Below, piece by piece: positions 5,887-64,000 of a DNA stretch of 64,000 nt. The position numbers were made by a program, and so were the translations under genes. Source of the stretch: Negativicutes bacterium (GTDB lineage Bacteria > Bacillota > Negativicutes > Anaeromusales > Anaeromusaceae); NCBI GenBank assembly GCA_009929485.1, contig SAAJ01000002.1, forward strand, positions 62,001 to 126,000, written 5' to 3'. Under the pieces are notes generated by a model. The model ran no database searches, was not told the origin of the DNA, and was given only the letters and a program-made list of their open reading frames with translations. How positions within the stretch are numbered: position 1 is the stretch's first letter; each line of letters starts with the position of its first letter.

Positions 5887-7551
5887 TTACATTTTTTCAG
5901 GCGCATCTACGCCGAGAATGCCCAAGGCCCGACACAGCACCTGCTGCGTCGCCGCAACCAGACCCAGACGAGCTTGCTGCACATCCGGCTCTGCGCCAAT
6001 AATACGGCATTGATTATAAAAAGTATGAAACAGACTTGCCGCCTCATGCACATAGCGAGCAATGCGGTGCGGCGCCCGTTCCCGAGCCGCCTGATCGATT
6101 TCTTCGGGAAAATCTCCCAGCTTTTTAATCAGTTCAATCTCCGCTTCCTCACGCAAAGCCTGCAGCGGCAAAGCGGCAAGTTCCCCCATTACAATCCCGG
6201 CTTCTGCGGTTTGACGGAAAATGCTGGAAATCCGGGCGTGTGCGTATTGCACATAATAGACGGGGTTTTCATTAGACCGGGACCGCGCCAAGTCAATGTC
6301 AAAATCCAGTTGGCTGTCAATGGAACGCATAATAAAGAAATAACGCGCCGCATCCCGGCCAACCTCTTCCATCAGCTCGTCCAACGTCACGCTTTGGCCT
6401 GTCCGCTTAGACATCTTTACCAGTTGGCCGTCCCGATACAAGCTAACCATCTGCAAAATCAAAACTTCCAAGCGCTCCGCTTCATAACCAAGAGCCGCCA
6501 TGGAAGCCTTCACTCGGCAGATATAGCCGTGGTGATCAGCGCCCCAAATATTAATGATTTTATCGAAGCCGCGTTCCGCTTTATTGCGATGGTAGGCGAT
6601 ATCCGCCGCCAAATACGTAGGCACGCCATTGTCGCGAATAATAACCCGATCCTTATCATCGCCATAGGCCGTGGATTTCAACCACAAAGCGCCTTCTTTT
6701 TCATAAGCCTGGCCCTTTTCCTTCAAGATGGCGCAGGCCTCGTCCACAGCGCCGCTTTGATGCAGGGTTCGTTCGCTGAACCATACGTCAAAATGCACAT
6801 TAAATGCTGCTAAGTGCTCCTTTAAAATCGCTAGTTTTTCCGCTAGCGCCACTTCTTTAAAGTGAGCTACCCGTTCCTCTTCACTCCAGGACAAATATTT
6901 GTCGCCGTCGCGATCAAGCAGGCCTTGCGCCGTAGTGATGATGTCTTCGCCCCGATAGCCGTTTTCCGGAAAGGCTATCTCTTGACCCAATAATTCCAAA
7001 TAGCGAGCGTTGACAGACGCCGCCAAATTGTCAATCTGGTTTCCCGCATCATTGATGTAGTATTCCGCCTGCACGTCATAGCCGGCGGCGCGCAGCACAT
7101 TGACCAAAGCACTGCCGAAAGCAGCGCCCCGTCCATGTCCCACATGCAACAAGCCTGTCGGATTGGCGCTGACAAACTCCACTTGGATCTTCTCACCGTT
7201 GCCGGTTTGCGTACAGCCGTAAGAATCTCCTTGAGCCAAAATATCTGCTAACAGGTCATGCACCCATTCCGGCCGCAGATAAAAATTAATAAAACCGGGA
7301 CCGGCAATCTCACAGCGCTCCAGCCAGGGACGCTGCAGATACTTTACCAGTGCCTCGGCCACTTTACGCGGATTCGTGCGCGCCGCCCGCGCGGTCTGCA
7401 TGGCAAAATTCGTAGCATAATCTCCAAATTCCTTTTGCGGCGGCACCTCTAGCAGCACCTCCGGCAATGTGTCCGCCTGAAAGTCGCCAGCGGCTATAGC
7501 CGCTGCAGCCGCTTCCCGAATGGCGTTCTCTAGGCTTGTCTTAATGTCCAC
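5887..7551 (-). CDS. argS: Arginyl-tRNA synthetase
   Basis: 554 residues, a full class I ArgRS that charges tRNA-Arg. The N-terminal Add-1 domain covers about residues 1-90, the HIGH box appears as HVGHGRGA near 130, and a KMSKRTG motif lies near 375, followed by the alpha-helical DALR anticodon-binding domain (YVQYAHARI...). The start is the GTG at 7551 with a GGGAGGAG site; it overlaps the DUF1934 gene by 11 nt, implying translational coupling. The same DUF1934-argS pairing occurs in Bacillus (ywiB-argS). Confidence 0.98.
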   Translation of the reverse strand: MDIKTSLENAIREAAAAAIAAGDFQADTLPEVLLEVPPQKEFGDYATNFAMQTARAARTNPRKVAEALVKYLQRPWLERCEIAGPGFINFYLRPEWVHDLLADILAQGDSYGCTQTGNGEKIQVEFVSANPTGLLHVGHGRGAAFGSALVNVLRAAGYDVQAEYYINDAGNQIDNLAASVNARYLELLGQEIAFPENGYRGEDIITTAQGLLDRDGDKYLSWSEEERVAHFKEVALAEKLAILKEHLAAFNVHFDVWFSERTLHQSGAVDEACAILKEKGQAYEKEGALWLKSTAYGDDKDRVIIRDNGVPTYLAADIAYHRNKAERGFDKIINIWGADHHGYICRVKASMAALGYEAERLEVLILQMVSLYRDGQLVKMSKRTGQSVTLDELMEEVGRDAARYFFIMRSIDSQLDFDIDLARSRSNENPVYYVQYAHARISSIFRQTAEAGIVMGELAALPLQALREEAEIELIKKLGDFPEEIDQAARERAPHRIARYVHEAASLFHTFYNQCRIIGAEPDVQQARLGLVAATQQVLCRALGILGVDAPEKM

Positions 7552-7975
7552 AAATTTGCTCCTCCCGTATCACGACAGACAATTGATTGGTACTTTGCCA
7601 TTGTCCGTCAATTTCCAAATCATAAGTAATGTCCACCGCGCCGCTTGCCGGTCCAAAAAGCCAAGAATATTCCTTCGTCATAATGCCCAAGGACAATTTG
7701 CCGTACGGCGTAGCATAGCCGCTTTCCGTACGCTCGCCGCGTCGAAACTCCTGTTCCTGTTCCACATCGCCGCGCCGCACCAAAATCGTTCGGTCTTCAT
7801 GTATCTTCAACAAGGTTGTTGTTTGTCCCAAGCCGTCTTCTTCCCGTTCCCGGTAGGAAATGTAATCGACCCCGTTCCGCCGATAATACGTGCCTGCAAC
7901 CGTCATTTCCTGACATTGTTCCTGGTCGTATACATCTTTTTGGCGTCCTGTAATAGTAACAAAAACTCGTTTCAT
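7541..7975 (-). CDS. DUF1934 (YwiB-like) beta-barrel protein
   Basis: 144 residues (145 if the ATG 3 nt upstream is used). The ATG at 7975 is preferred because it sits 7 nt from AAAGGAG. The pattern of a start VFVTITGRQKD, a middle TTTLLKIHEDRTILVRRGD and a late YGKLSLGIMT is typical of DUF1934, a calycin-like small barrel conserved beside argS in Firmicutes. Its function is unknown. It is the first gene of a two-gene operon with argS. Confidence 0.85.
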   Translation of the reverse strand: MKRVFVTITGRQKDVYDQEQCQEMTVAGTYYRRNGVDYISYREREEDGLGQTTTLLKIHEDRTILVRRGDVEQEQEFRRGERTESGYATPYGKLSLGIMTKEYSWLFGPASGAVDITYDLEIDGQWQSTNQLSVVIREEQICGH

Positions 7976-8025
7976 CATGAGTCTCCTTTAAAACTAGGAA
8001 CACGTGCATCACACCATAATAATCT

Positions 8026-8055
8026 ATTATACTCGAAGTTCTCCTTTTTTGCCAA
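8026..8055 (-). promoter_or_regulatory. Promoter of the DUF1934-argS operon
   Basis: Minus strand TTGGCA (8050-8055), an 18-nt spacer, and TATAAT (8026-8031): a near-consensus sigma-A promoter about 50 nt upstream of the first start codon. Confidence 0.75.
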
Positions 8056-8068
8056 GCCTGCCCATAAG

Positions 8069-8094
8069 AAAAAACCGGCTTACGCCGGTTTTTT
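8069..8094 (-). terminator. Intrinsic terminator after the chemotaxis-like gene
   Basis: AAAACCGGC/GCCGGTTTT hairpin with a four-base loop and T-runs on both strands. It lies 10 nt beyond the stop of the minus-strand transducer gene and can act in either direction. Confidence 0.85.
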
Positions 8095-8103
8095 AATCAA
8101 TTT

Positions 8104-8955
8104 TCAAAACACGTCTTTTAGTTTTTGGCTGGTATCTTGCATGGCTTCCACCATATGTACAATTTCTTCCATCGCCTTCGCCTGTTCGCCGGAAATCTCA
8201 GCAGATTGATGCACGCCGCCGATGACATCCTCGTTGGCCTTGCGTATTTCCGCCAAAATCTTGTTGATTGTTTCTGTCGCCTCGGCGCTGTTTTGGGCCA
8301 GTTTCTGCATTTCCTGGGCCACTACGGCAAAGCCTCGGCCCACTTCGCCCGCCCGCGCCGCTTCAATAGAAGCATTAAGGGATAATAGTTTCGTTTCGCT
8401 GGCAATGGCCCGGCTCATATCCAAAATATGGGCCGTTTCCTTCACTCGTTCCACCGCATTCTCAGCCAGACGCGACACTTTTTCCGTCGTCGCCGCCAAT
8501 TCCTGGGATGAAGCGGAAATCTCCTCCACCGCCGCCGCTGCTTGCTGCGCCTGCGCCGACACCTGTCCCGACATAGTTTCAATCAGCTGAATCTGCTGCT
8601 GCTGCCGCAGTCTCGTTCCAAAAAGCGCCGCCACCACCTTGGCTATAGGCCGCGCTATAGTGAGCTCACCAGCCACGCCAAAGCTTCCTACCCGCGCACC
8701 GTCAAAAACGATAGGGTAGTTTTGGCCTTCTTTCATTTGCCCCTGCGCAGCCTGCTCGGCGGTCACAAAAAATTCGTCAATTTCGCCGAGCATCATTCTC
8801 CTGGCCCCGTCATGGACCATGCCATAGCGATTTTTAGCTGAATCGCCGATAATAACGCCGCCTTCGCCACACACAATCGTATGACAACCAGTAGCGCCAT
8901 AAACAAAATCCGTCAGTTCCTGCGCCATTTCTCGTGAAATCTCTAATTTAGCCAT
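8104..8955 (-). CDS. Small soluble chemotaxis-type transducer with sugar-diacid-like sensor domain (copy 1)
   Basis: 283 residues with no signal peptide or membrane helix. The N-terminal 110 residues ([53 protein letters not shown]) resemble the putative sugar-diacid recognition domain found at the N-terminus of CdaR regulators. The C-terminal part is a truncated MCP signalling coiled coil with the CheA/CheW-contact hairpin ([21 protein letters not shown]). It is too short to hold the full MCP adaptation region. It lies 22 nt downstream of a paralogue, so the pair is probably co-transcribed. The ligand is unknown; a cytoplasmic metabolite sensor feeding the Che pathway is the likely role. Confidence 0.85.
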
Positions 8956-8977
8956 AGTTCCGCCCCCTGAATCTCAA

Positions 8978-9841
8978 TTACCGATCGTATAAAGACGCCA
9001 AGGCCACCGTAGAGCTCTGCATCGTTTCCACCATATTGCTGATGTCTTGCATGGCCTTAGCTTGCTCACCGGAAATGCCGGCGGATTGATCGACCCCAGT
9101 AATTACCCGATTCAACGCGTTTTGAATATCCCCCAGAATTCCATTAATCTGCTCCGTCGCTTCGGCGCTGTTTTGCGCCAGCTTCTGCATTTCCTGAGCC
9201 ACCACGGCAAAACCGCGTCCCACTTCGCCCGCCCGCGCCGCTTCGATGGATGCATTCAGCGACAATAATTTCGTTTCCGTCGCAATGGCCCGGCTCATAT
9301 CCAGAATTTTCGCCGTGTTTTTCACTTTATCCATGGATTCTCGCGACAGCTGCACCACATTTTCTGTTGTCGAAGCCAGCTCTTGGGAAGAAGCGGATAT
9401 TTCCTCAATAGCAGCCACCGCCTGATGAATATCGCCGGAAACGCGCTTAGCCATGCGCTCCGCTTCACTACGTCGAAAGTTTTCCCTCACCCGATAGCTA
9501 ACAACCGTTGCCGCTACCAAGGTCAGCGGTTTCACCACATCAATCGGCCCAGTAATGCCAAAGGTACCGATGCGCTCTCCTTCTACGTCAATCAGACAGC
9601 TATAGCCTTCCTTTACATTTGAATTAGCAGCCGCCTCTTGAGCGGTCACCGCATACTCATGAGCCAACCCTTGTACGATCTTTTGCGCACCGGCATGCAC
9701 CTTGCCAATGCGAGCCCCGCCATAAGTATCCCCGATAATGGTACCTGTTTCATTGCAGATAATCATGTCATAGCCGGTTTTCCCCTTTACAAAAGAAACC
9801 AATTCCTGGGCCAACGACGCCTCGATGTGAAAATTGCTCAT
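8978..9841 (-). CDS. Small soluble chemotaxis-type transducer with sugar-diacid-like sensor domain (copy 2)
   Basis: 287 residues with the same architecture as its downstream neighbour: an N-terminal diacid-recognition-like domain ([40 protein letters not shown]), a short linker, and the conserved MCP signalling tip ([21 protein letters not shown]). The signalling halves are almost identical between the copies while the sensor halves differ, which suggests tandem duplication followed by divergence of ligand specificity. The start follows GGGGAGAG. No membrane segment is visible, so it should act in the cytoplasm. Confidence 0.85.
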
Positions 9842-9965
9842 GCCTGTTCTCTCCCCATTCTTTCCCGCAACAACTTATCTTCTCTAATGTTTATAAAATT
9901 ACATATATATATTTTTGATTACACTTCCACATCGTTCTTCTCTTTTCCTGCTTCAGGAATCACCA

Positions 9966-10010
9966 TAAAAAAGAAAAGCGCTTGGCTGCAATTTCTGCTG
10001 CCAAACGCTT
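9966..10010 (-). terminator. Intrinsic terminator of the DUF2156 gene
   Basis: An imperfect stem of about 14 bp (AAGCGTTTGGCAGCA and its partner) followed on the minus strand by TTTTCTTTTTT, just after the stop at 10018. Confidence 0.8.
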
Positions 10011-10017
10011 CTGCTCA

Positions 10018-10911
10018 TTATTTAGGCGTAGCCACATATTTCTCCAGCAAAATAACCGGATGATAGGATTCTTTGGCCTTGCGCAGGCCCTCCTCGCCCA
10101 TATCTTCCTCGCGATTGATGAAGGTTACTCCCTCCCAGGCTTGACGACAAAATTCCCAATTGATAGCCGCATAAAGACCGCGAATCTCGCCATTCGCTTT
10201 TTCCACATGAATAACTGCAGTATCTTCGTTAATTTTCTCGCCAAAAGAGTATGCCTCCACTTGGCCGTTAAGCAAGATGACTCCGCCTACGAACCCAAGG
10301 CGCTCCATATTCTGCAACCCATCATGAATAGCCTGACGTTCGCAGTCAATGGAATCCCCCTTTTCACAGCCCTTCTGTGCACACCAGCGATCAGTAAACG
10401 CCTCACAGGCATCCACCAATTCCGGCGTCAACGGAGCATACTCATAACCGGAATTGTTTTTCAAAAACTGATTCAAATGGTTCTTTTTGCCGTGATAACG
10501 CCGTCCCGCTAACGTCGCCAAAGCCGTCTGCTCGTAAACATAGTCAAAATTATCCCGGTCAGCTGTCAAATTAAAAAACCCGGGCTTCGCTGCTTCTACC
10601 ACAGGCATCAGCGTTGCTTCGATGCCTCTGATAATAAGCGGATGTTCTGTTTCTTCACAAAAGGCCATCAGCTCTTCCAAGGCAGCCGGCATTGCCTCGT
10701 CGCGGCAAATAGGCGGCAGCACAAAGGCTTCCCCTTCCCACTCCGCGCGCAAGAATAAAGCTTCACCAGCTTCCGCCCAGCGAATGCGGCAAACATTGCG
10801 CCACATAAACAGATTCGTAAAGTTGAAATGCGCATTATCATAACGGCGCTGCTGAAAATACGATTGAAACGTTTCCTTATCGTCTAATTGGATCTCACGA
10901 AATTGTAACAT
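10018..10911 (-). CDS. DUF2156 (phosphatidylglycerol lysyltransferase C-terminal-like) protein
   Basis: 297 residues from the ATG at 10911, which follows AAGGAGAGATCCTA; an in-frame extension to 10989 runs through the promoter and is rejected. The sequence (FTNLFMWRNVCRIRW; NRE..MGEEGLRKAKESYHP) matches the soluble DUF2156 family, a double GNAT-like fold related to the aminoacyl-transfer domain of MprF but without its membrane flippase part. Family members are presumed to use aminoacyl-tRNA as donor; the acceptor is not known. It is a single-gene unit with its own promoter and terminator. Confidence 0.85.
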   Translation of the reverse strand: MLQFREIQLDDKETFQSYFQQRRYDNAHFNFTNLFMWRNVCRIRWAEAGEALFLRAEWEGEAFVLPPICRDEAMPAALEELMAFCEETEHPLIIRGIEATLMPVVEAAKPGFFNLTADRDNFDYVYEQTALATLAGRRYHGKKNHLNQFLKNNSGYEYAPLTPELVDACEAFTDRWCAQKGCEKGDSIDCERQAIHDGLQNMERLGFVGGVILLNGQVEAYSFGEKINEDTAVIHVEKANGEIRGLYAAINWEFCRQAWEGVTFINREEDMGEEGLRKAKESYHPVILLEKYVATPK

Positions 10912-10959
10912 TAGGATCTCTCCTTGTATCGAAACCACTTGATTCCAAAATCTACTCAC

Positions 10960-10989
10960 AGTATACACTACGCTCCGACTCGCTGACAA
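10960..10989 (-). promoter_or_regulatory. Promoter of the DUF2156 gene
   Basis: Minus strand TTGTCA (10984-10989), an 18-nt spacer, and TATACT (10960-10965), ending about 50 nt upstream of the preferred ATG. Confidence 0.65.
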
Positions 10990-11050
10990 TAAAGACGCTT
11001 ATAGACGCAACTTCCTTATAATTCAGACAACACAAGCAACACTATTTTTA

Positions 11051-11111
11051 AGAAAAGAACAGGAGCTGAAAGCACGATTCAAAAGCGTTCTTCCAACCCC
11101 TGTTCTCTTTG
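11051..11111 (-). terminator. Probable terminator of the NSS transporter gene
   Basis: GAGAACAGG and CCTGTTCTT arms enclose a roughly 40-nt insert and are followed on the minus strand by TTCTTAAAAA. The long loop lowers certainty. Confidence 0.5.
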
Positions 11112-11141
11112 TCCCTGTGTGTAAAAGTCCGCAGCTCGTTC

Positions 11142-12500
11142 TTATAAAACGCCCACAGAGTGCAGAAAAATCAAACCAAGCAATACCGGCGTCACATAGC
11201 GCACGCTAAACCAATAAAAGGTAAACATGCCCCCTAACGGCAAGGCGCCGCCATTAGAAAACTCACGACGCAGTTCCTCCCAAGAGAGATGGCGCCGCAC
11301 AAAAATGACAAAGCACAAACCTCCTACAGGCAGCATAACATTCGAGGAAAGATAATCGAACCAATCAAAAAAGCCCCGACCCAACCAGGTGTAACTTCCT
11401 AAAAGGCTGGCTTTATCCACAGAAAGGGTAGCCAATATGCCTATGCAAAAAATGATCAGAGCGTTCAGCGCCGCTGCTTTTTTACGATCAACGCCATATT
11501 CTTCGCTCATCCAAGCGGTAGGCACCTCTACCAACGACAGCATCGCCGTTGTGGCTGCAATAGACGCCAAGAAGAAAAAGGCTACAAGAAGCAAGTTACC
11601 AAAAGGGATTTGTGAAAAAACCAACGGAATCGTCATAAACAGCAAGCCAGGACCTGCGCCAGGCTCTAGGCCAAACGAGAATACAGTAGGAAACACCGCC
11701 AAACCAGCCAGCAACGATACCATGGTATCGGACACGGCTACCTTAGCGCCTGTACGGAACAGATTATTATCAGCCGTAAAATAACTGGCATAAGTCGTCA
11801 TCGTTCCCATGCCCAAAGACAATTTAAAGAAGGCCAAGCCCATCGCCGTCAAAATCGCCGCACCGCTCAGCTTGCTAAAATCAACCTGGAAAAGAAAATC
11901 CACGCCGGCTCCAGCACCAGGCAGCGTTAGCGCCCGAAAGTCACAGATTAAAATTAAAACAAATAATAACGGCATCAAGGTCTTGGTCATACGTTCAATC
12001 CCTTTTTGCACACCGAAAGCAATAATGCTGGAAACAACCACCAATACAATAAACTGCCACAAAACCGGCGATAAAGGACCGACTACGACGGCGCCAAATT
12101 CAGCCTTGGCCGCCTCCATGGTTATGCCCACAAAATCACCTTGAATTGCCTTGAACAAATAGTAGTATACCCAACCAGCTACGCAACTGTAAAAAAACAT
12201 AATCAAATACGCTGACGCTACGCCCATGGTCCCCACATATTTCCAAGGCGTGCCTGGACTCAGCATGCTCATCGCCCCTACAGGATTTTTACGCGTTTTG
12301 CGCCCCACGTAAAACTCCGTCCACATTACCGGCAAGCCGATAAAGGCCACGCACAGCAAATACACCGCCAAGAACGCACCGCCGCCATATTCTCCCACCA
12401 AATAAGGGAATTTCCAGATATTCCCTAAGCCGACAGCCGATCCAAGGGTCGCAAAAAAGACGGCTAAGCCGGAAGAAAAGGTTTCTCTTTGTCCGTTCAT
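11142..12500 (-). CDS. Sodium-dependent (NSS/SNF family) amino acid transporter
   Basis: 452 residues with about 11-12 hydrophobic helices. The first helix carries the family signature GSAVGLGNIWKFPYL, which forms part of the substrate and sodium sites in LeuT-type transporters, followed by GGGAFLAVYLL. Members bring amino acids or related amines into the cell with Na+. The length is closer to 11-12 helix bacterial members such as MhsT and TnaT. The substrate cannot be read from sequence. The ATG at 12500 follows AAGGAAGTGAGG. No partner gene is adjacent. Confidence 0.92.
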   Translation of the reverse strand: MNGQRETFSSGLAVFFATLGSAVGLGNIWKFPYLVGEYGGGAFLAVYLLCVAFIGLPVMWTEFYVGRKTRKNPVGAMSMLSPGTPWKYVGTMGVASAYLIMFFYSCVAGWVYYYLFKAIQGDFVGITMEAAKAEFGAVVVGPLSPVLWQFIVLVVVSSIIAFGVQKGIERMTKTLMPLLFVLILICDFRALTLPGAGAGVDFLFQVDFSKLSGAAILTAMGLAFFKLSLGMGTMTTYASYFTADNNLFRTGAKVAVSDTMVSLLAGLAVFPTVFSFGLEPGAGPGLLFMTIPLVFSQIPFGNLLLVAFFFLASIAATTAMLSLVEVPTAWMSEEYGVDRKKAAALNALIIFCIGILATLSVDKASLLGSYTWLGRGFFDWFDYLSSNVMLPVGGLCFVIFVRRHLSWEELRREFSNGGALPLGGMFTFYWFSVRYVTPVLLGLIFLHSVGVL

Positions 12501-12631
12501 TTACCTCACTTCCTTCCTTAAATTTAATGGCTCTTTTTTGTGGTTACACTGCCTGCACCTTACTTGTATTATCATATATTGTCGGAATAATCGCAAACAT
12601 TCTCTTTCACAAGGCGCACCTAGCAGCAATA

Positions 12632-12686
12632 CTAAAAAAAATTGGACAAGACCGTCTGGCGCGTACGCCAAACAGCCTTGTCCATC
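12632..12686 (-). terminator. Intrinsic terminator of purL
   Basis: A long stem of about 19 bp (GGACAAG... / ...CTTGTCC) with a TACG loop, followed on the minus strand by TTTTTTTT; 45 nt beyond the purL stop. Confidence 0.9.
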
Positions 12687-12730
12687 CTAGCAAAGGTTGC
12701 CTATGTTGTCAATTTACAACATTACACTTC

Positions 12731-15700
12731 CTATTTTGCAAAATAGGCTACACCGGCTTCAAAAATATGCTGATCCTTCGCCCCAGGCACATTGGTGAAT
12801 ACATTCTCCCCAATTCGCTCGGAATGGCCCATTTTCCCCAACACCCGGCCATCCGGACTTGTAATGCCTTCAATTGCATCTAAAGAGCCATTCGGATTAT
12901 GAGGCAGCGCATGCGTAGGCTGGCCCGCCAAATCCACGTACTGTGTCGCCACTTGTCCAGCGGCGTGCAGCGTCTTCAGCCACTGCGACGAGGCGTAAAA
13001 GCGTCCTTCGCCGTGAGACATCGCCACTACATGCTCATCGCCGCTTTCCGTCAGCGCCAACCAGGGCGAACGATTATTAGTGACGCGCGTGCGAGCCAAA
13101 CAAGAAATATGCCGTCCCAAAGAGTTAAAGGTCAAAGTAGGGCAAGAAGCATCTAAAGGCCGAATTTCGCCAAAAGGCAGCAGTCCCAGTTTGATTAGCG
13201 CCTGGAAGCCGTTGCAAATCCCCAGCACCAAGCCATCCCGTTGCTGCAACAGTTCGGTCACGCCTTCGCTCAGAGCCGGATTGCGCAGCATCGTCGCAAT
13301 AAACTTACCGGAACCGTCCGGTTCGTCGCCAGCGCTGAAGCCGCCGGGAAGCATCAAAATATTGGCCTGCTTTAAGGCCGCCGCAAAAGCTTGCACCGAT
13401 TCTTCCACCGCCGCCGGCGTCAGATTACGAATCACCAGCGTTTGCGACACAGCCCCCGCTTTTTCAAACGCTCTGGCAGTGTCGTACTCACAGTTGCTTC
13501 CCGGAAAAACGGGAATAAGCACGCGGGGCTTCGCCAAACGCAGCGCACTGCGCCGCCGCTCTTTCGCAGCCCCCAGACTGCCTGCAGGCGTTCCAGCAGG
13601 AACAGAAGCCTTGGTAGGAAATACCTTTTCCAGCGGCGCTTCCCACGCAACTTGAGCCTGCTCAAGACGCAGACTCCGTCCTTGCAGCTCAAATTCCGGT
13701 TCTGCCGTTACCGTTCCCAGTTCTACCACGCGGCAGTCGGAAAGGGCCTCCGCCACATTTAGATCAGCCGCCACTTCAAGCAGCAAGCTGCCGTATTCCG
13801 GCGCAAATAAACCTGTCGGCTCCACTTCAGCGCCAAAACGCACTCCCAAGGCATTGCCAAAGCTCATGCGGCTGACCGCAGCGGCAATGCCTCCATAACG
13901 CACCGTCGAAGCCGCTTTAACAAGACCCTTGGCTGTCAATTCGCCTACGCGGTCATACATGGCGGCCATACCTGCAAAATCAGGGATTTCTTCAGCGTCC
14001 CGCGCTACAGGGAGCCATAACAATTTACTGCCAGCTTCCTTAAACTCCGGCGACACAACCTGCGACGCATGAGCCAGAGATACCGCAAAGGAAATTAAAG
14101 TCGGCGGTACATCCAATTCTTGGAAAGAACCAGACATGCTGTCTTTGCCGCCGATAGCCGGCAGCCCCAATTGCACCTGCGCTTCAAAAGCGCCCAATAG
14201 CGCCGCCAAAGGCTTGCCCCAACGCTGCGGGTCCGTCCCTAAGCGTTCAAAATACTCCTGGAAGGACAAGCGAATGCGCCGCCACTCACCGCCCATGGCC
14301 ACTACTTTCGCCACAGACTCCACCACCGCATACAGAGCGCCATGGAAAGGACTCCAGCTGCCGATCGCTGGATGGTAACCAAAGGTCATCACAGTGGCTG
14401 TTGTCGTTTCCCCCTGCAATACCGGCAGCTTAGCCGCCATGCCTTCGGCAGGAGTCAACTGGTGCTTGCCTCCTAAAGGCATCAGCACGCTTGCTGCGCC
14501 AATAGTGCTGTCAAAACGCTCCACAAGCCCCTTCTGACTGCATACATTCAGCTCGCCCAGCAAATTCAGCCAGGCCTCGCGCCAATCGACCACCGCCGCA
14601 GTTCCAAAGAAAGAAACATCCGACGGCTCAGCCACAAAGGCCTTGGTTGACTGCTTGACTCCAGCGGTATCCAAGAAATCCCGGCTCAAAGAAACAATTG
14701 CTTTGTCGCGCCACAACATAGTCAAACGCCGGTCATCGGTAACCGTAGCCACCACGGTAGCTTCTAAATTTTCCTCATCCGCATGACGCTGGAAGGCTGC
14801 GGCATTTTCTGCAGCGACAACAACCGCCATACGCTCCTGGGATTCCGAGATGGCCAGTTCTGTGCCATCAAGGCCTTCATATTTTTTGGGCACCCGGTCA
14901 AGCTCAATACGCACGCCGTCGGTAAGCTCGCCCACCGCAACAGAAACGCCGCCAGCGCCAAAATCATTGCACCGTTTGATCATCCGGCTTACTTCGCTGC
15001 GACGGAACAAACGCTGAATTTTACGTTCTGTCGGCGGATTTCCTTTTTGCACTTCTGCACCGCAAGTAGCCAAAGACTCTTCGGTATGCGCCTTAGAAGA
15101 ACCGGTAGCGCCGCCGCAGCCGTCGCGGCCAGTTCGCCCGCCTACGAGAATCACTACATCTCCTGGCTGCGGCTGTGCACGAACCACGTTTTCCTTGGGC
15201 GCCGCCGCCATCACCGCGCCAACTTCCATGCGTTTAGCCACAAAGCCTTCGTCATAGAATTCGGCCACCTGACCAGTAGCCAGACCAATCTGGTTGCCGT
15301 AAGAGCTGTAGCCTGAAGCCGCGCCTGTAGTAATCTTGCGCTGCGACAGTTTCCCAGGCAGTGTATCCGCCAAGGAACACCGCGGATCGCCGCTGCCGGT
15401 TACCCGCATGGCTTGATATACATAGGAACGACCGGAAAGAGGATCGCGAATAGCCCCGCCCAGACAAGTAGCGGCGCCGCCAAAAGGCTCGATTTCCGTC
15501 GGATGATTGTGAGTTTCATTTTTAAACATCACAAGCCATTCTTCGGGTTTGCCGTCTACTTCGGCTTCCACCACAACGCTGCAGGCATTGATCTCCTCAG
15601 ACGCATCCAGATCATCCAACAAGCCCCGCAGACGCAGTTCCTTCATGCCCAGCACCGCCACATCCATCAAGCAGATATCGCGATCTTTCTCCTTGGCGCC

Positions 15701-60148: not shown

Positions 60149-60297
60149 TTTTACTCTCTCCTTCTGCCACATTCCAAGATCTACATACTTATTTGTTCTA
60201 AAGCAGCCTTTTTCCTGTTTTAGTTAGCTATTTTTTTGCCAGCCTAGGCAGAATCATCATTAAATCGCACATCCACTGCATACCAAAAGCCAAAAAG

Positions 60298-60325
60298 GCC
60301 TTGAGCCAAAGCCCAAGACCCTTAT
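60298..60325 (-). repeat. 28-bp repeat B (copy of the tRNA-fragment terminator)
   Basis: Identical over 28 nt (starting GCCTTGAGCCAAAGCCCAAG) to 62211-62238. It folds on the minus strand as a 9-bp stem with a TTTG loop followed by CTTTTT. It lies 75 nt beyond the Fe-S protein stop. Confidence 0.8.
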
Positions 60326-61195: not shown

Positions 61196-62041
61196 CTATG
61201 GTTCCTGAAGCAATTGAAGCAAGGAGGTTACGGAAGAAGAAAGACGCTTATCCTGCCGAGTAATCGCCCAAAGAGTAATTTGAACCTCCGCCGCCTGCTT
61301 CAAAACAACTATTTCTCTTTCATTTTTGATAATAACGCGCGGCAATAAAGCGATTCCTAAACCCTCGGCCATGGCGCTTGTTACAGCGTCAAAATCGCTA
61401 TATTCAAACGCATAGGTCAAGCCATGCTTTTGCAGCAAGCCGTCACAGAGCTTGCGAAACGTACAGCCCGGCCGAAAATTGATAATAGGATACTCCGTAA
61501 GCTTAGAACGCTCTCCTTGGGGCAGAATACTTTTATGACCGCACCACACAAGCTCATCCGAACGAAGAGTTACGGTATCAAGATTCTTTTCCACAATATA
61601 GTCATGCACAAGGCCGATGTCATATTGATTGCTCTTTAAGCCTTGCAACACTGCTTTAGAATTGGCGCAAATTTCAACGCGTACCGTTCCCGCTGCCTTG
61701 GCTGCTTGCAGTTTCAATAAAGCGGGCGATAGAATGTGGTTAATATAATTAGTGGATAAGGCAATGCGAATAGGCGCCCCTGCGGCGATACTGCCAAGAT
61801 GATGGAAAGTTTCACTATAAAGCGCCAGCATCTTTTCCGCCGGTTCTACTAAATAGCTGCCCGCTTCGGTTATATATAGTTTTTTCCCGATCCGTTCAAA
61901 TAAGGGTACGCCAAAATGTTCTTCCAGCGTCCGAATTTGCGCCGATACGGCGGGCTGCGTAAAATTCAGCAGCTCCGCCGCTTGCGTAATGTTCCCCAGC
62001 CGAGCGACCATGCAAAACGTTTTTAATAATTGAATATCCAT
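61196..62041 (-). CDS. LysR family transcriptional regulator
   Basis: 281 residues from the ATG at 62041. The N-terminal winged HTH (LLKTFCMVARLGNITQAAEL, NFTQPAVSAQIRTLEEHFG, PLFERIGKKLYITEAG) is canonical. The C-terminal substrate-binding domain starts about residue 85 (IRIALSTNYINHILSPALLKL). LysR proteins usually control a neighbouring gene; the nearest is the same-strand Fe-S gene 105 nt downstream. Ligand unknown. Confidence 0.93.
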   Translation of the reverse strand: MDIQLLKTFCMVARLGNITQAAELLNFTQPAVSAQIRTLEEHFGVPLFERIGKKLYITEAGSYLVEPAEKMLALYSETFHHLGSIAAGAPIRIALSTNYINHILSPALLKLQAAKAAGTVRVEICANSKAVLQGLKSNQYDIGLVHDYIVEKNLDTVTLRSDELVWCGHKSILPQGERSKLTEYPIINFRPGCTFRKLCDGLLQKHGLTYAFEYSDFDAVTSAMAEGLGIALLPRVIIKNEREIVVLKQAAEVQITLWAITRQDKRLSSSVTSLLQLLQEP

Positions 62042-62202
62042 ATACACCTCAAGGACGCTGAATTAAATACTCACAAGAACTTGCTTTATGTCCTACTCTC
62101 TACACAATAACACGAACATACTCTTGAAGCAAAAACTCTCTTTGCCAAGAAAGCCCCCGCAACTTCTCCTTGGGCAAATGTAAAACATATATTTTCGGAT
62201 AC

Positions 62203-62238
62203 AAAAAAGAGCCTTGAGCCAAAGCCCAAGACCCTTAT
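62203..62238 (-). repeat. 28-bp repeat A, terminator behind the tRNA fragment
   Basis: The 28-nt unit at 62211-62238 plus T6 on the minus strand forms an intrinsic terminator 5 nt after the CCA end of the tRNA fragment. It is the same unit as 60298-60325, 1.9 kb away. Confidence 0.82.
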
Positions 62239-62243
62239 CTTAC

Positions 62244-62288
62244 TGGTGCTCCCGAGACGATTCGAACGTCCGACCAACGGTTTAGGAA
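62244..62288 (-). tRNA. 3' half of a tRNA-Arg(CCT), fragment (attachment-site-like)
   Basis: On the minus strand the sequence ends CGGGAGC-A-CCA, preceded by a complete T arm (GGACG, TTCGAAT, CGTCT), a TGGTC variable loop, ACCGT as the 3' side of the anticodon stem, and a TTCCTAA loop with CCT at the anticodon place. Upstream bases do not pair with ACCGT, and no D arm or 5' acceptor strand exists, so the tRNA is broken in or just before the anticodon loop. It marks the boundary to AT-rich DNA. Confidence 0.75.
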
Positions 62289-62364
62289 GTTCAACATACT
62301 ATGAGGCTATGGCTTTGTATCAAGTTAAAACTACTTCCAACGCACACCTTTAACTACTTTAAAA

Positions 62365-64000
62365 CTAGATATAAGCACTATTCTTTCTCTCAGCACGCAT
62401 TTCAAATTCCGCCAAACAAACACGCAATCTTTCCACAAAACAATCACTATTAGTTGGAGATAGACAAATAAATCGAATACGATGGTCCTTAAAAAATTTA
62501 TTATTGTCACCTGCACGTCCTTCAGGATAAATAACCCAAACTTCCGGAACTGGCCTTATATCCAAAATATTATCTCCATATAGATATGCAGACATGCATT
62601 GCGTACTATAACATACCAATTGAATCATTTCACGCGAACGGAGATGCATTTTTAACTTACTAGCATCCCAGAAGCTTGATGGTCTTCTATATTTTACATC
62701 CATCAATAATGAACCTGAATAAGTATCCTTAATGTATACGTCAAGCCTAATATCTGGCTGATTATTGGCACCACACATATATAATGGACTATTATCATGA
62801 TCAGTTTCATTCATCTCATACGGTATTTTTGCATCATAAAACATTCGAATCATAATGCTTTCGTTTGCATTTTTATACTCAGAATATGATCCTGCTGGGA
62901 TTGCTGGTATCAATATATTTTCATCGCTCGTATTAATAGAATTAAACCATCCCCCACAAACAGAATATCCTATTGTTTTTAAAGCATTACTAACTTGAAG
63001 CAAGCACCAAATTTCATACAACTTATCAGTCCGCTTCCACTGATAATTGTATGTGGGATCTAAAGAAAAATTAATTTTTTTCGTTCTAACTTGATTATAC
63101 AGTTTATATAAAGTTTTATATCTAGAATCAATGAAAAGAATTTGCGGTACGTTATTAGACTGTATTTGTGAAACCTCTTGAAACCAAAATGTATTTTCTA
63201 GCATTTTAAATGCTGATTGCATTTTTTTTGCCTTTTTACAGAAACACGAAATATCTTTTATGCGCTTTCCCTTAATAGCTCTTTGTTTGCTAGATTTATC
63301 TCCATACCTAAGCAATTCATAAATTTCTTTTTCGGATTCTTCAATGTATTTTTCAGCAACATCAATAAAACCTTCTAAATTCCTTCCTAGAAAAAACAAT
63401 ATTTTCTTTATCCATCGATTTTCTTGCAAATCATAGTCTACTGAAATAACGGGACTCATTACAGTTTCTTTTTTATCAGGTCTACGCAAGCGCTGCTTCA
63501 GAGTTACCTCGTCAATAACACTTCCACTCGAAATAGGTTTCTCAATATATTCTTTCTTTAGTTTAAAGTTTGCCTTAGTGGTTAAATCGCTTAAAGCAGA
63601 CATTACTTTAGAAAAATTTTGTGCAATAAGCAAAAAAGACAATAACTTATAAGGAGGCATTGGAATATTCATTCCATTCATATTACCAAAGCCTAAATTC
63701 CGATAAATTAAGTCAGTAGCAATCCCCGGAAGTAACTTTTCTAGTTCATCTCGCATAGTTTTCCATTGAGGCCGTGATAAATGCTTTGGTTTAATAGCTA
63801 CACATGCATAATAAAACTGCGCTCGTACTTCAACAACAATTTGGTAATATCCTGGTATTAATGGGTAATCCTCATAACTAAATAAAGATCTCAATTCATC
63901 AGAAGGAAAGAAAAAAGCTCTCTCTTCTCCATCCAAATTACTATTAAGCAGCTCATCCATCCCTTCAATATACAATTTTGCTTGTGGATCATCACACTTA
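62365..64000 (-). CDS. DUF2357 protein with C-terminal PD-(D/E)XK nuclease (McrC-like), 5' end outside the window
   Basis: At least 540 residues; the frame stays open to the window edge (a TTG at 63975 is only an internal option), so the true start lies beyond 64000. The N-terminal part resembles DUF2357. The C-terminal nuclease core reads NQPDIRLDVYIKD then SLLMDVKYRR, the PD...D-x-K arrangement of the PDDEXK_7 (DUF524) family. Such proteins pair with McrB-like AAA+ motors in restriction-type defence; the partner would lie upstream, outside the window. The gene is visibly richer in A and T than its neighbours, with many Lys, Ile and Asn, a sign of transfer. Confidence 0.78.
   Translation of the reverse strand, partial: KCDDPQAKLYIEGMDELLNSNLDGEERAFFFPSDELRSLFSYEDYPLIPGYYQIVVEVRAQFYYACVAIKPKHLSRPQWKTMRDELEKLLPGIATDLIYRNLGFGNMNGMNIPMPPYKLLSFLLIAQNFSKVMSALSDLTTKANFKLKKEYIEKPISSGSVIDEVTLKQRLRRPDKKETVMSPVISVDYDLQENRWIKKILFFLGRNLEGFIDVAEKYIEESEKEIYELLRYGDKSSKQRAIKGKRIKDISCFCKKAKKMQSAFKMLENTFWFQEVSQIQSNNVPQILFIDSRYKTLYKLYNQVRTKKINFSLDPTYNYQWKRTDKLYEIWCLLQVSNALKTIGYSVCGGWFNSINTSDENILIPAIPAGSYSEYKNANESIMIRMFYDAKIPYEMNETDHDNSPLYMCGANNQPDIRLDVYIKDTYSGSLLMDVKYRRPSSFWDASKLKMHLRSREMIQLVCYSTQCMSAYLYGDNILDIRPVPEVWVIYPEGRAGDNNKFFKDHRIRFICLSPTNSDCFVERLRVCLAEFEMRAERKNSAYI

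Follow-up and report, generated by a model that had tools for sequence, protein, structure and literature searches.

A tRNA-Arg(CCT) island with inverted ends, changing defence-type cargo and a candidate Type I-B CoCoNuT in a Negativicutes genome

We analysed a window of 64,000 nucleotides (G000:C78:62001-126000) from the draft genome of a Negativicutes bacterium (G000, 3.2 Mb), whose contig extends 12 kb beyond the window end. Features past this end are given in the coordinates of the stretch L004 (G000:C78:120001-138074), where the window coordinate equals the L004 coordinate plus 58000. From left to right, the locus comprises:

window 60292..60325, minus strand, in the same orientation as the tRNA fragment: older 34-35 nt copy of the tRNA terminator, without tRNA sequence
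window 61196..62047, minus strand: LysR-type regulator, conserved neighbour to the left of the integration site
window 62204..62243, minus strand: terminator behind the tRNA fragment, with which it forms an 85-nt repeat
window 62244..62288, minus strand: tRNA-Arg(CCT) 3' fragment, from the anticodon loop to the CCA end, with the crossover at TTCCTAAACC
window 62289..64000, minus strand: left end of the island cargo (GC 0.33), which runs on to about L004 9357
window 62365..64000 (complete at L004 4365-6170), minus strand: cnuC, CnuC/McrC-like (DUF2357 and PD-(D/E)XK nuclease), 601 aa
L004 6154-8043, minus strand: cnuB, McrB-like AAA+, 629 aa
L004 8036-9115, minus strand: cnuA, coiled coil, 359 aa
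L004 9426-9623, plus strand: hicA
L004 9637-10044, plus strand: hicB
L004 10088-10645, plus strand: DUF134 gene
L004 10704-10779 (68704-68779 in extended window numbering), plus strand: intact tRNA-Arg(CCT), called by ARAGORN, the only intact copy found
L004 10735-10819, plus strand, outside the window: second 85-nt copy (100% identity), inside and behind the intact tRNA-Arg(CCT)
beyond the intact tRNA, minus strand: NDH-2-type oxidoreductase

The fragment at 62244-62288 (minus strand) corresponds to positions 32-76 of the intact tRNA-Arg(CCT), with 45/45 nt identical (E 3.8e-17, search within G000), and the identity carries on through the terminator to span 85/85 nt (window 62204-62288, E 7e-38). 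This confirms the original prediction, made from the window alone, of a tRNA-Arg(CCT) 3' half running from the anticodon loop to CCA and followed by a terminator; the intact gene that it expected past position 64000, with a matching 3' end of 45 nt, was found on the plus strand of L004. ARAGORN called no tRNA on the window itself, as expected for a fragment. With the fragment on the minus strand and the intact tRNA on the plus strand, the two 85-nt copies form an inverted repeat whose arms lie 6,446 nt apart. Three copies only were recovered in G000 at E<=0.001, namely the fragment, the end of the intact tRNA and the 34-35 nt terminator copy. The last of these is kept upstream in G000 (60292-60325), G001 (L025 388-422) and G002 (L026 7586-7620), and in G092 it is broken up by a two-ORF transposase-like insertion (L101 13993-15602); it may be a scar left by an earlier integration, one delimiting the 4Fe-4S and LysR genes.

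At the tRNA fragment the GC content drops from about 0.46-0.48 to 0.32-0.36, as had been anticipated from an AT-rich turn on its 5' side. The DNA between the fragment and hicAB has a GC content of 0.326, against 0.477 and 0.482 in the flanks, which delimits an island of 5 kb and 33% GC in a genome of 48% GC. Homology between G000 and G092, a genome of the same species, resumes at L004 9358.

The cargo of the G000 island consists of three genes, cnuA, cnuB and cnuC, which overlap one another and all lie on the minus strand. The open frame at 62365-64000 (minus strand, cut by the window end) matches PDDEXK_7 above the cut-off (E 4e-8) and DUF2357 just under it (E 1.4e-4), and the complete CnuC likewise matches PF04411 (PDDEXK_7, E 5e-8) and, just under the cut-off, PF09823 (DUF2357, E 2e-4). 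Its PD...(D/E)xK residues are present and conserved in 10/10 aligned sequences. The nuclease proposed from the truncated frame therefore stands, PDDEXK_7 being above the cut-off and DUF2357 just under it, and the AAA+ gene sought directly upstream is the McrB-like cnuB, which overlaps the nuclease gene. CnuB has an AAA_5 match and is a PADLOC candidate PDC-M26A (E 6e-48). Its signature motif is NxD, not NxxD (N442-M-D444, followed by E445), and N442, D444 and E445, together with the Walker residues, are invariant in 12/12 aligned sequences.

Relatives of CnuB were found at 12 named or MAG loci, the nearest named one being from an uncultured Pelosinus (class Negativicutes). A McrC relative is present in 12/12 of these loci, and an upstream ORF of 308-387 aa occurs in 11/11 of the named loci that hold sequence upstream of CnuB; L077, which starts within CnuB, was left out of this count. 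CnuA itself (359 aa) has no Pfam match. The link between CnuA and the upstream genes of the relatives rests on position, size and make-up, because tblastn with the coiled-coil gene against the loci of CnuB relatives gave no match. The coiled coil is seen in the G000 protein as a residue pattern only, and in the relative from L078, which is 19% identical to it and is the source of the domain reading of CnuA, as a helix of 133 residues. The predicted model of this relative has a helical front, the 133-residue helix and an alpha/beta end. Residues 1-84 match ASC2 (Z 5.7, 3.0 A, 73 aligned), which we take to be a pyrin domain, and the best match to residues 301-385 is the RcsB receiver (Z 7.0, 2.8 A, 82 aligned), both scores lying in the range of common folds. 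In the model of the L078 CnuB, 43% identical to that of G000, the first 250 residues are strand-rich and include no long helix. Its top structural match is E. coli McrB (Z 18.8); neither an OB-fold nor a YTH domain was among the matches listed, a list filled by the AAA+ part. Solved relatives of CnuB by sequence were limited to short, uninformative UvrA matches.

In all 12 listed genomes of the family f33 (L050-L061, G320-G331), a McrC relative adjoins a relative of CnuB that matches at 46-50% over the GTPase part, with GC contents of 0.32-0.67. The constancy of this pair across the family hints at a resident, perhaps non-defence role.

The class search covered 380 genomes, four of which belong to the genus: G000, G092 (same species), and G001 and G002 (sister species). 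The assembly of G001 is a single contig and that of G092 has two. The site is occupied in G000, G001 and G092 and empty in G002 (n = 1). No McrB match was obtained in G092, G001 or G002; the check for related genomes lacking the island genes, proposed at the outset, thus came out as foreseen.

In the empty genome, LysR is followed by the tRNA and DUF134 (both minus strand), by 693 bp and then by NDH. The DUF134-tRNA block of G002 matches those of G000, G001 and G092 in reverse only (3/3). The outer, LysR-side flank of the fragment in 3/3 occupied genomes is the 3' flank of the intact tRNA of G002; therefore, the LysR-side fragment is the native 3' end. The linkers behind the CCA end support the same conclusion: TAATTATAAGG is found in the intact gene of G002 and in the LysR-side fragment of G001, and TAAGATAAGG in the intact genes of G000, G092 and G001, a difference that appears to separate native from incoming tRNA copies. 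The LysR-side fragments of G000 and G092 also bear TAAGATAAGG as their linker, and to explain this a further event, for example gene conversion, has to be assumed. The intact tRNA genes of G000, G092 and G001 also share a flank with GGGCAA and GGGGCAA, which that of G002 is without. Repeats of this type are typical arm sites of integrases. The proposal that the fragment is a displaced remnant of integration by a tyrosine recombinase is thus supported, with the native flank beside the fragment and the rebuilt intact tRNA elsewhere. The 693 bp between DUF134 and NDH in G002 (L026 10222-10914) have no counterpart in G000, G001 or G092, and hicAB is at the locus in 3/3 occupied genomes and absent from G002. 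Because hicAB is missing from G002 and the 693 bp are unique to it, the flip was not a clean inversion. The ancestral orientation is read from this one empty genome together with the flank and linker signatures.

Cargo differs in 3/3 occupied genomes, each of which carries kinds assigned to defence by family match only. That of G092 is a single AbiH gene (PF14253, E 9e-60). In G001 we found an IS256-type transposase, a reverse transcriptase (best match Drt6/Drt4), a second tRNA fragment, a CD-NTase (SMODS) and a NucC-like nuclease with DUF6602. This second fragment (about 87%) has the direction of the first fragment of G001, and it bears the same kind of element flank as the outer copy; the two look like units integrated in tandem at one site. 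All four fragments at the locus in the three occupied genomes begin at the same TTCCTAAACC, and three of them are preceded by a similar non-tRNA flank ending ACA.

A distant site in G001 (L102, G001:C1:1106001-1126000) holds a retron type III-A set (PRTase, winged helix, RT; 7519-14213) after a tRNA-Ala(CGC), with a diverged tRNA-Arg 3' fragment (about 85%, 7677-7768) between the two, and G000, G002 and G092 diverge from G001 precisely at the tRNA-Ala end. This fragment is flanked on one side by direct repeats and on the opposite side by a GGGGGCA stretch, and is more like a whole unrecombined site than a plain secondary integration. An IS256-type transposase is present in both defence sites of G001, with 96% DNA identity (L025 2503-3705 and L102 14483-15676).

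A search with PF00589 returned 8 matches in G000 and 7 each in G001 and G002. Among the G001 matches is a truncated tyrosine integrase at the locus (L025 8020-8382, minus strand, three stops inside, E 3e-15); its C-terminal catalytic portion is preserved and extends as far as the start of the hicAB operator. G092, which was outside the PF00589 search, has a stretch similar to this relic at the same position (75% over 201 bp). In G000, neither the ORFs between the two tRNA copies nor the PF00589 matches include an integrase or relic within the island, and an integrase there was rejected. The expected integrase is thus missing from the G000 island, but the corresponding position carries a truncated one in G001 and, judging from DNA similarity, in G092; the other three of the four checks proposed at the outset came out as foreseen. 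The shared truncation beside hicAB suggests that the flip may predate the split of the species and that the G000 cargo would have been exchanged afterwards.

We consider it fairly likely, on the whole, that the locus arose by tyrosine integration and a later flip of the block, which left inverted scars, and that cargo exchange continued, with a CoCoNuT as the cargo in G000. This account has direct support in the tRNA fragment, the inverted order compared with the empty G002, the differing cargo, the truncated integrase of G001 and the protein domains. In an ancestor, a small element would have entered the anticodon loop of the tRNA-Arg(CCT) through tyrosine recombination, supplying a replacement 3' half and displacing the native 3' half with its terminator to a position beside the LysR gene. 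Later, the block with the rebuilt tRNA, DUF134 and hicAB would have flipped, and the integrase would have lost its front half. The slot between the orphan fragment and hicAB may then have changed its cargo as elements integrated at the orphan fragment or as sequence was exchanged via the flanks. Because the two tRNA ends are inverted repeats, recombination would flip the island rather than release it: the intervening 6.4 kb would be turned around and one intact tRNA restored, with no circle released. The slot can thus probably no longer excise itself. From the features above we infer the order of these events and the mechanism of the flip, as well as the loss of mobility and the defence activity of the cargo. 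The original prediction had the end of a mobile island here, with its body and intact tRNA beyond position 64000; both are there, and the copies are inverted, which is not the classic excisable layout, so that 'mobile' probably describes the past of the island and its cargo rather than the present island.

A much less probable alternative is that the tRNA 3' ends were inverted before the flip, a second related element having inserted oppositely near the NDH gene, and that homologous or integrase-driven recombination between them then turned the block. The left breakpoint does coincide with the end of the 85-nt repeat, the extra fragment inside the G001 island and the diverged one after tRNA-Ala indicate that copies arise elsewhere, and inversion of DNA flanked by tRNA-Leu sites in inverted orientation has been shown in vitro for an archaeal integrase (PMC5495485). 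However, the flank of the inner copy of G001 is like that of the outer copy, as fits tandem integration at one site, and comparison of the four stretches revealed no second element close to the NDH gene.

It is improbable that the occupied orientation is ancestral and that G002 lost the island and flipped the block, even though three of the four genomes have that orientation. The 3' flank of the intact tRNA of G002 recurs at the orphan fragments of the other genomes, and the G001 fragment carries the G002 linker; moreover, this scenario takes more steps, since it requires a precise loss together with a flip that brings back the native flank. More doubtful still is the idea that the 85-nt copies represent a dispersed terminator repeat rather than attachment sites, for which the terminator copy without tRNA sequence at 60292-60325 (34-35 nt) could speak: the 85-nt repeat begins exactly in the anticodon loop, divides host from cargo, occurs with an integrase relic and belongs to a set of only three copies in G000 at E<=0.001. 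No exact match to the 30-nt core was found in viral_contigs that would point to a virus with the same attachment core, and with mismatches disallowed this is weak evidence. Finally, an ordinary tRNA island, bounded by direct repeats and mobile to this day, would account for the fragment, the terminator and the AT-rich cargo, but scarcely deserves credence, the copies being inverted in 3/3 occupied genomes, one of them a single-contig assembly, and the G000 island having no integrase. The inverted orientation of the 85-nt copies rejects it unless the region was misassembled alike in all three genomes, and an assembly fault is unlikely, as G001 (one contig) and G092 (two contigs) agree with G000.

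The favoured history would illustrate how a mobile defence island may settle as a resident, one small inversion turning excision into harmless flipping while the cargo still changes. A bolder reading, which we hold to be rather unlikely, takes the inverted pair for a working landing site and not a wreck, where elements enter at the orphan 3' fragment, drop one defence system each and decay; one tRNA end would be native and the other rebuilt, with the tRNA itself staying put beyond DUF134. If this were true, the host would keep a permanent slot for antivirus cassettes that are unable to leave; cassette traffic would never break the tRNA, since a flip across the inverted ends restores one intact tRNA; and tRNA fragments facing the 'wrong' way would point to captured defence slots, which searches for direct repeats overlook.

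Among published systems, the cargo of G000 appears to fit the Type I-B CoCoNuT (CnuA-CnuB-CnuC). The NxD branch includes Type I-B CoCoNuTs, found mainly in Bacillota, with a separate coiled-coil CnuA, a CnuB without a coiled coil and a CnuC; their CnuA has a PYD/CARD-like front and a receiver-like end, their CnuB begins with a CSD, often accompanied by a YTH-like domain, and their CnuC begins with an Ig-like domain (PMC11090510, Bell et al. 2024). The G000 genes share with them the order CnuA-CnuB-CnuC, the separate coiled-coil CnuA, the NxD GTPase and the DUF2357/PD-(D/E)XK CnuC; no coiled coil is fused to CnuB, judging by the model of the L078 relative (43% identical), and the setting is Bacillota, the nearest named relative being an uncultured Pelosinus. 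In gene order, GTPase motif and nuclease domains, no clear difference from that description (PMC11090510) emerged. On these features the CnuABC cargo is probably another member of this already published kind, and the locus gives Type I-B CoCoNuTs a mobile setting. Following the published predictions, the front part of CnuB may sense a signal of infection, the CnuB GTPase ring together with CnuC may switch on the CnuC nuclease, and the coiled-coil CnuA may assemble or regulate the complex; among the papers surveyed we found no experiment on any CoCoNuT.

The architecture of the island invites comparison with CIMEs, described as cis-mobilizable elements with attL and attR and no integration genes, which accrete in tandem at tRNA ends, tandem integration at one site being a known course for elements without an integrase (PMC5704250). 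Similarly, copies of a tRNA end flank the cargo here, no integrase or transfer genes of the island's own are found among the ORFs that these copies enclose in G000, and G001 has two units side by side. In contrast to a CIME, which keeps attL and attR and is movable through them (PMC5704250), the outer copies in G000 are inverted, which predicts inversion; their orientation is not one that permits excision, a clause that is our own reading of the definition, and on this count the G000 island is not a CIME. The tRNA defence hotspots of E. coli (PMC10121019) likewise combine fixed neighbours with changing defence cargo, some without a known route of mobility, and differ from the present locus, with its tiny modules of one or two systems, its other bacterial class and its flipped tRNA block. 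In Thermococcus, a tyrosine recombinase makes inversions between tRNA sites (PMC5495485). Both cases have inverted tRNA-derived sites as substrates of a tyrosine recombinase, the archaeal one involving large chromosomal inversions and an active integrase, whereas here the inverted segment is 6.4 kb and only a broken integrase persists in sister genomes. Among titles on inverted attachment sites and flipped tRNA islands, none described an inversion-locked bacterial defence island, which is no proof of absence. What is new here is modest: a tRNA island that is probably locked by inversion and whose cargo continues to turn over, as a variation on known islands.
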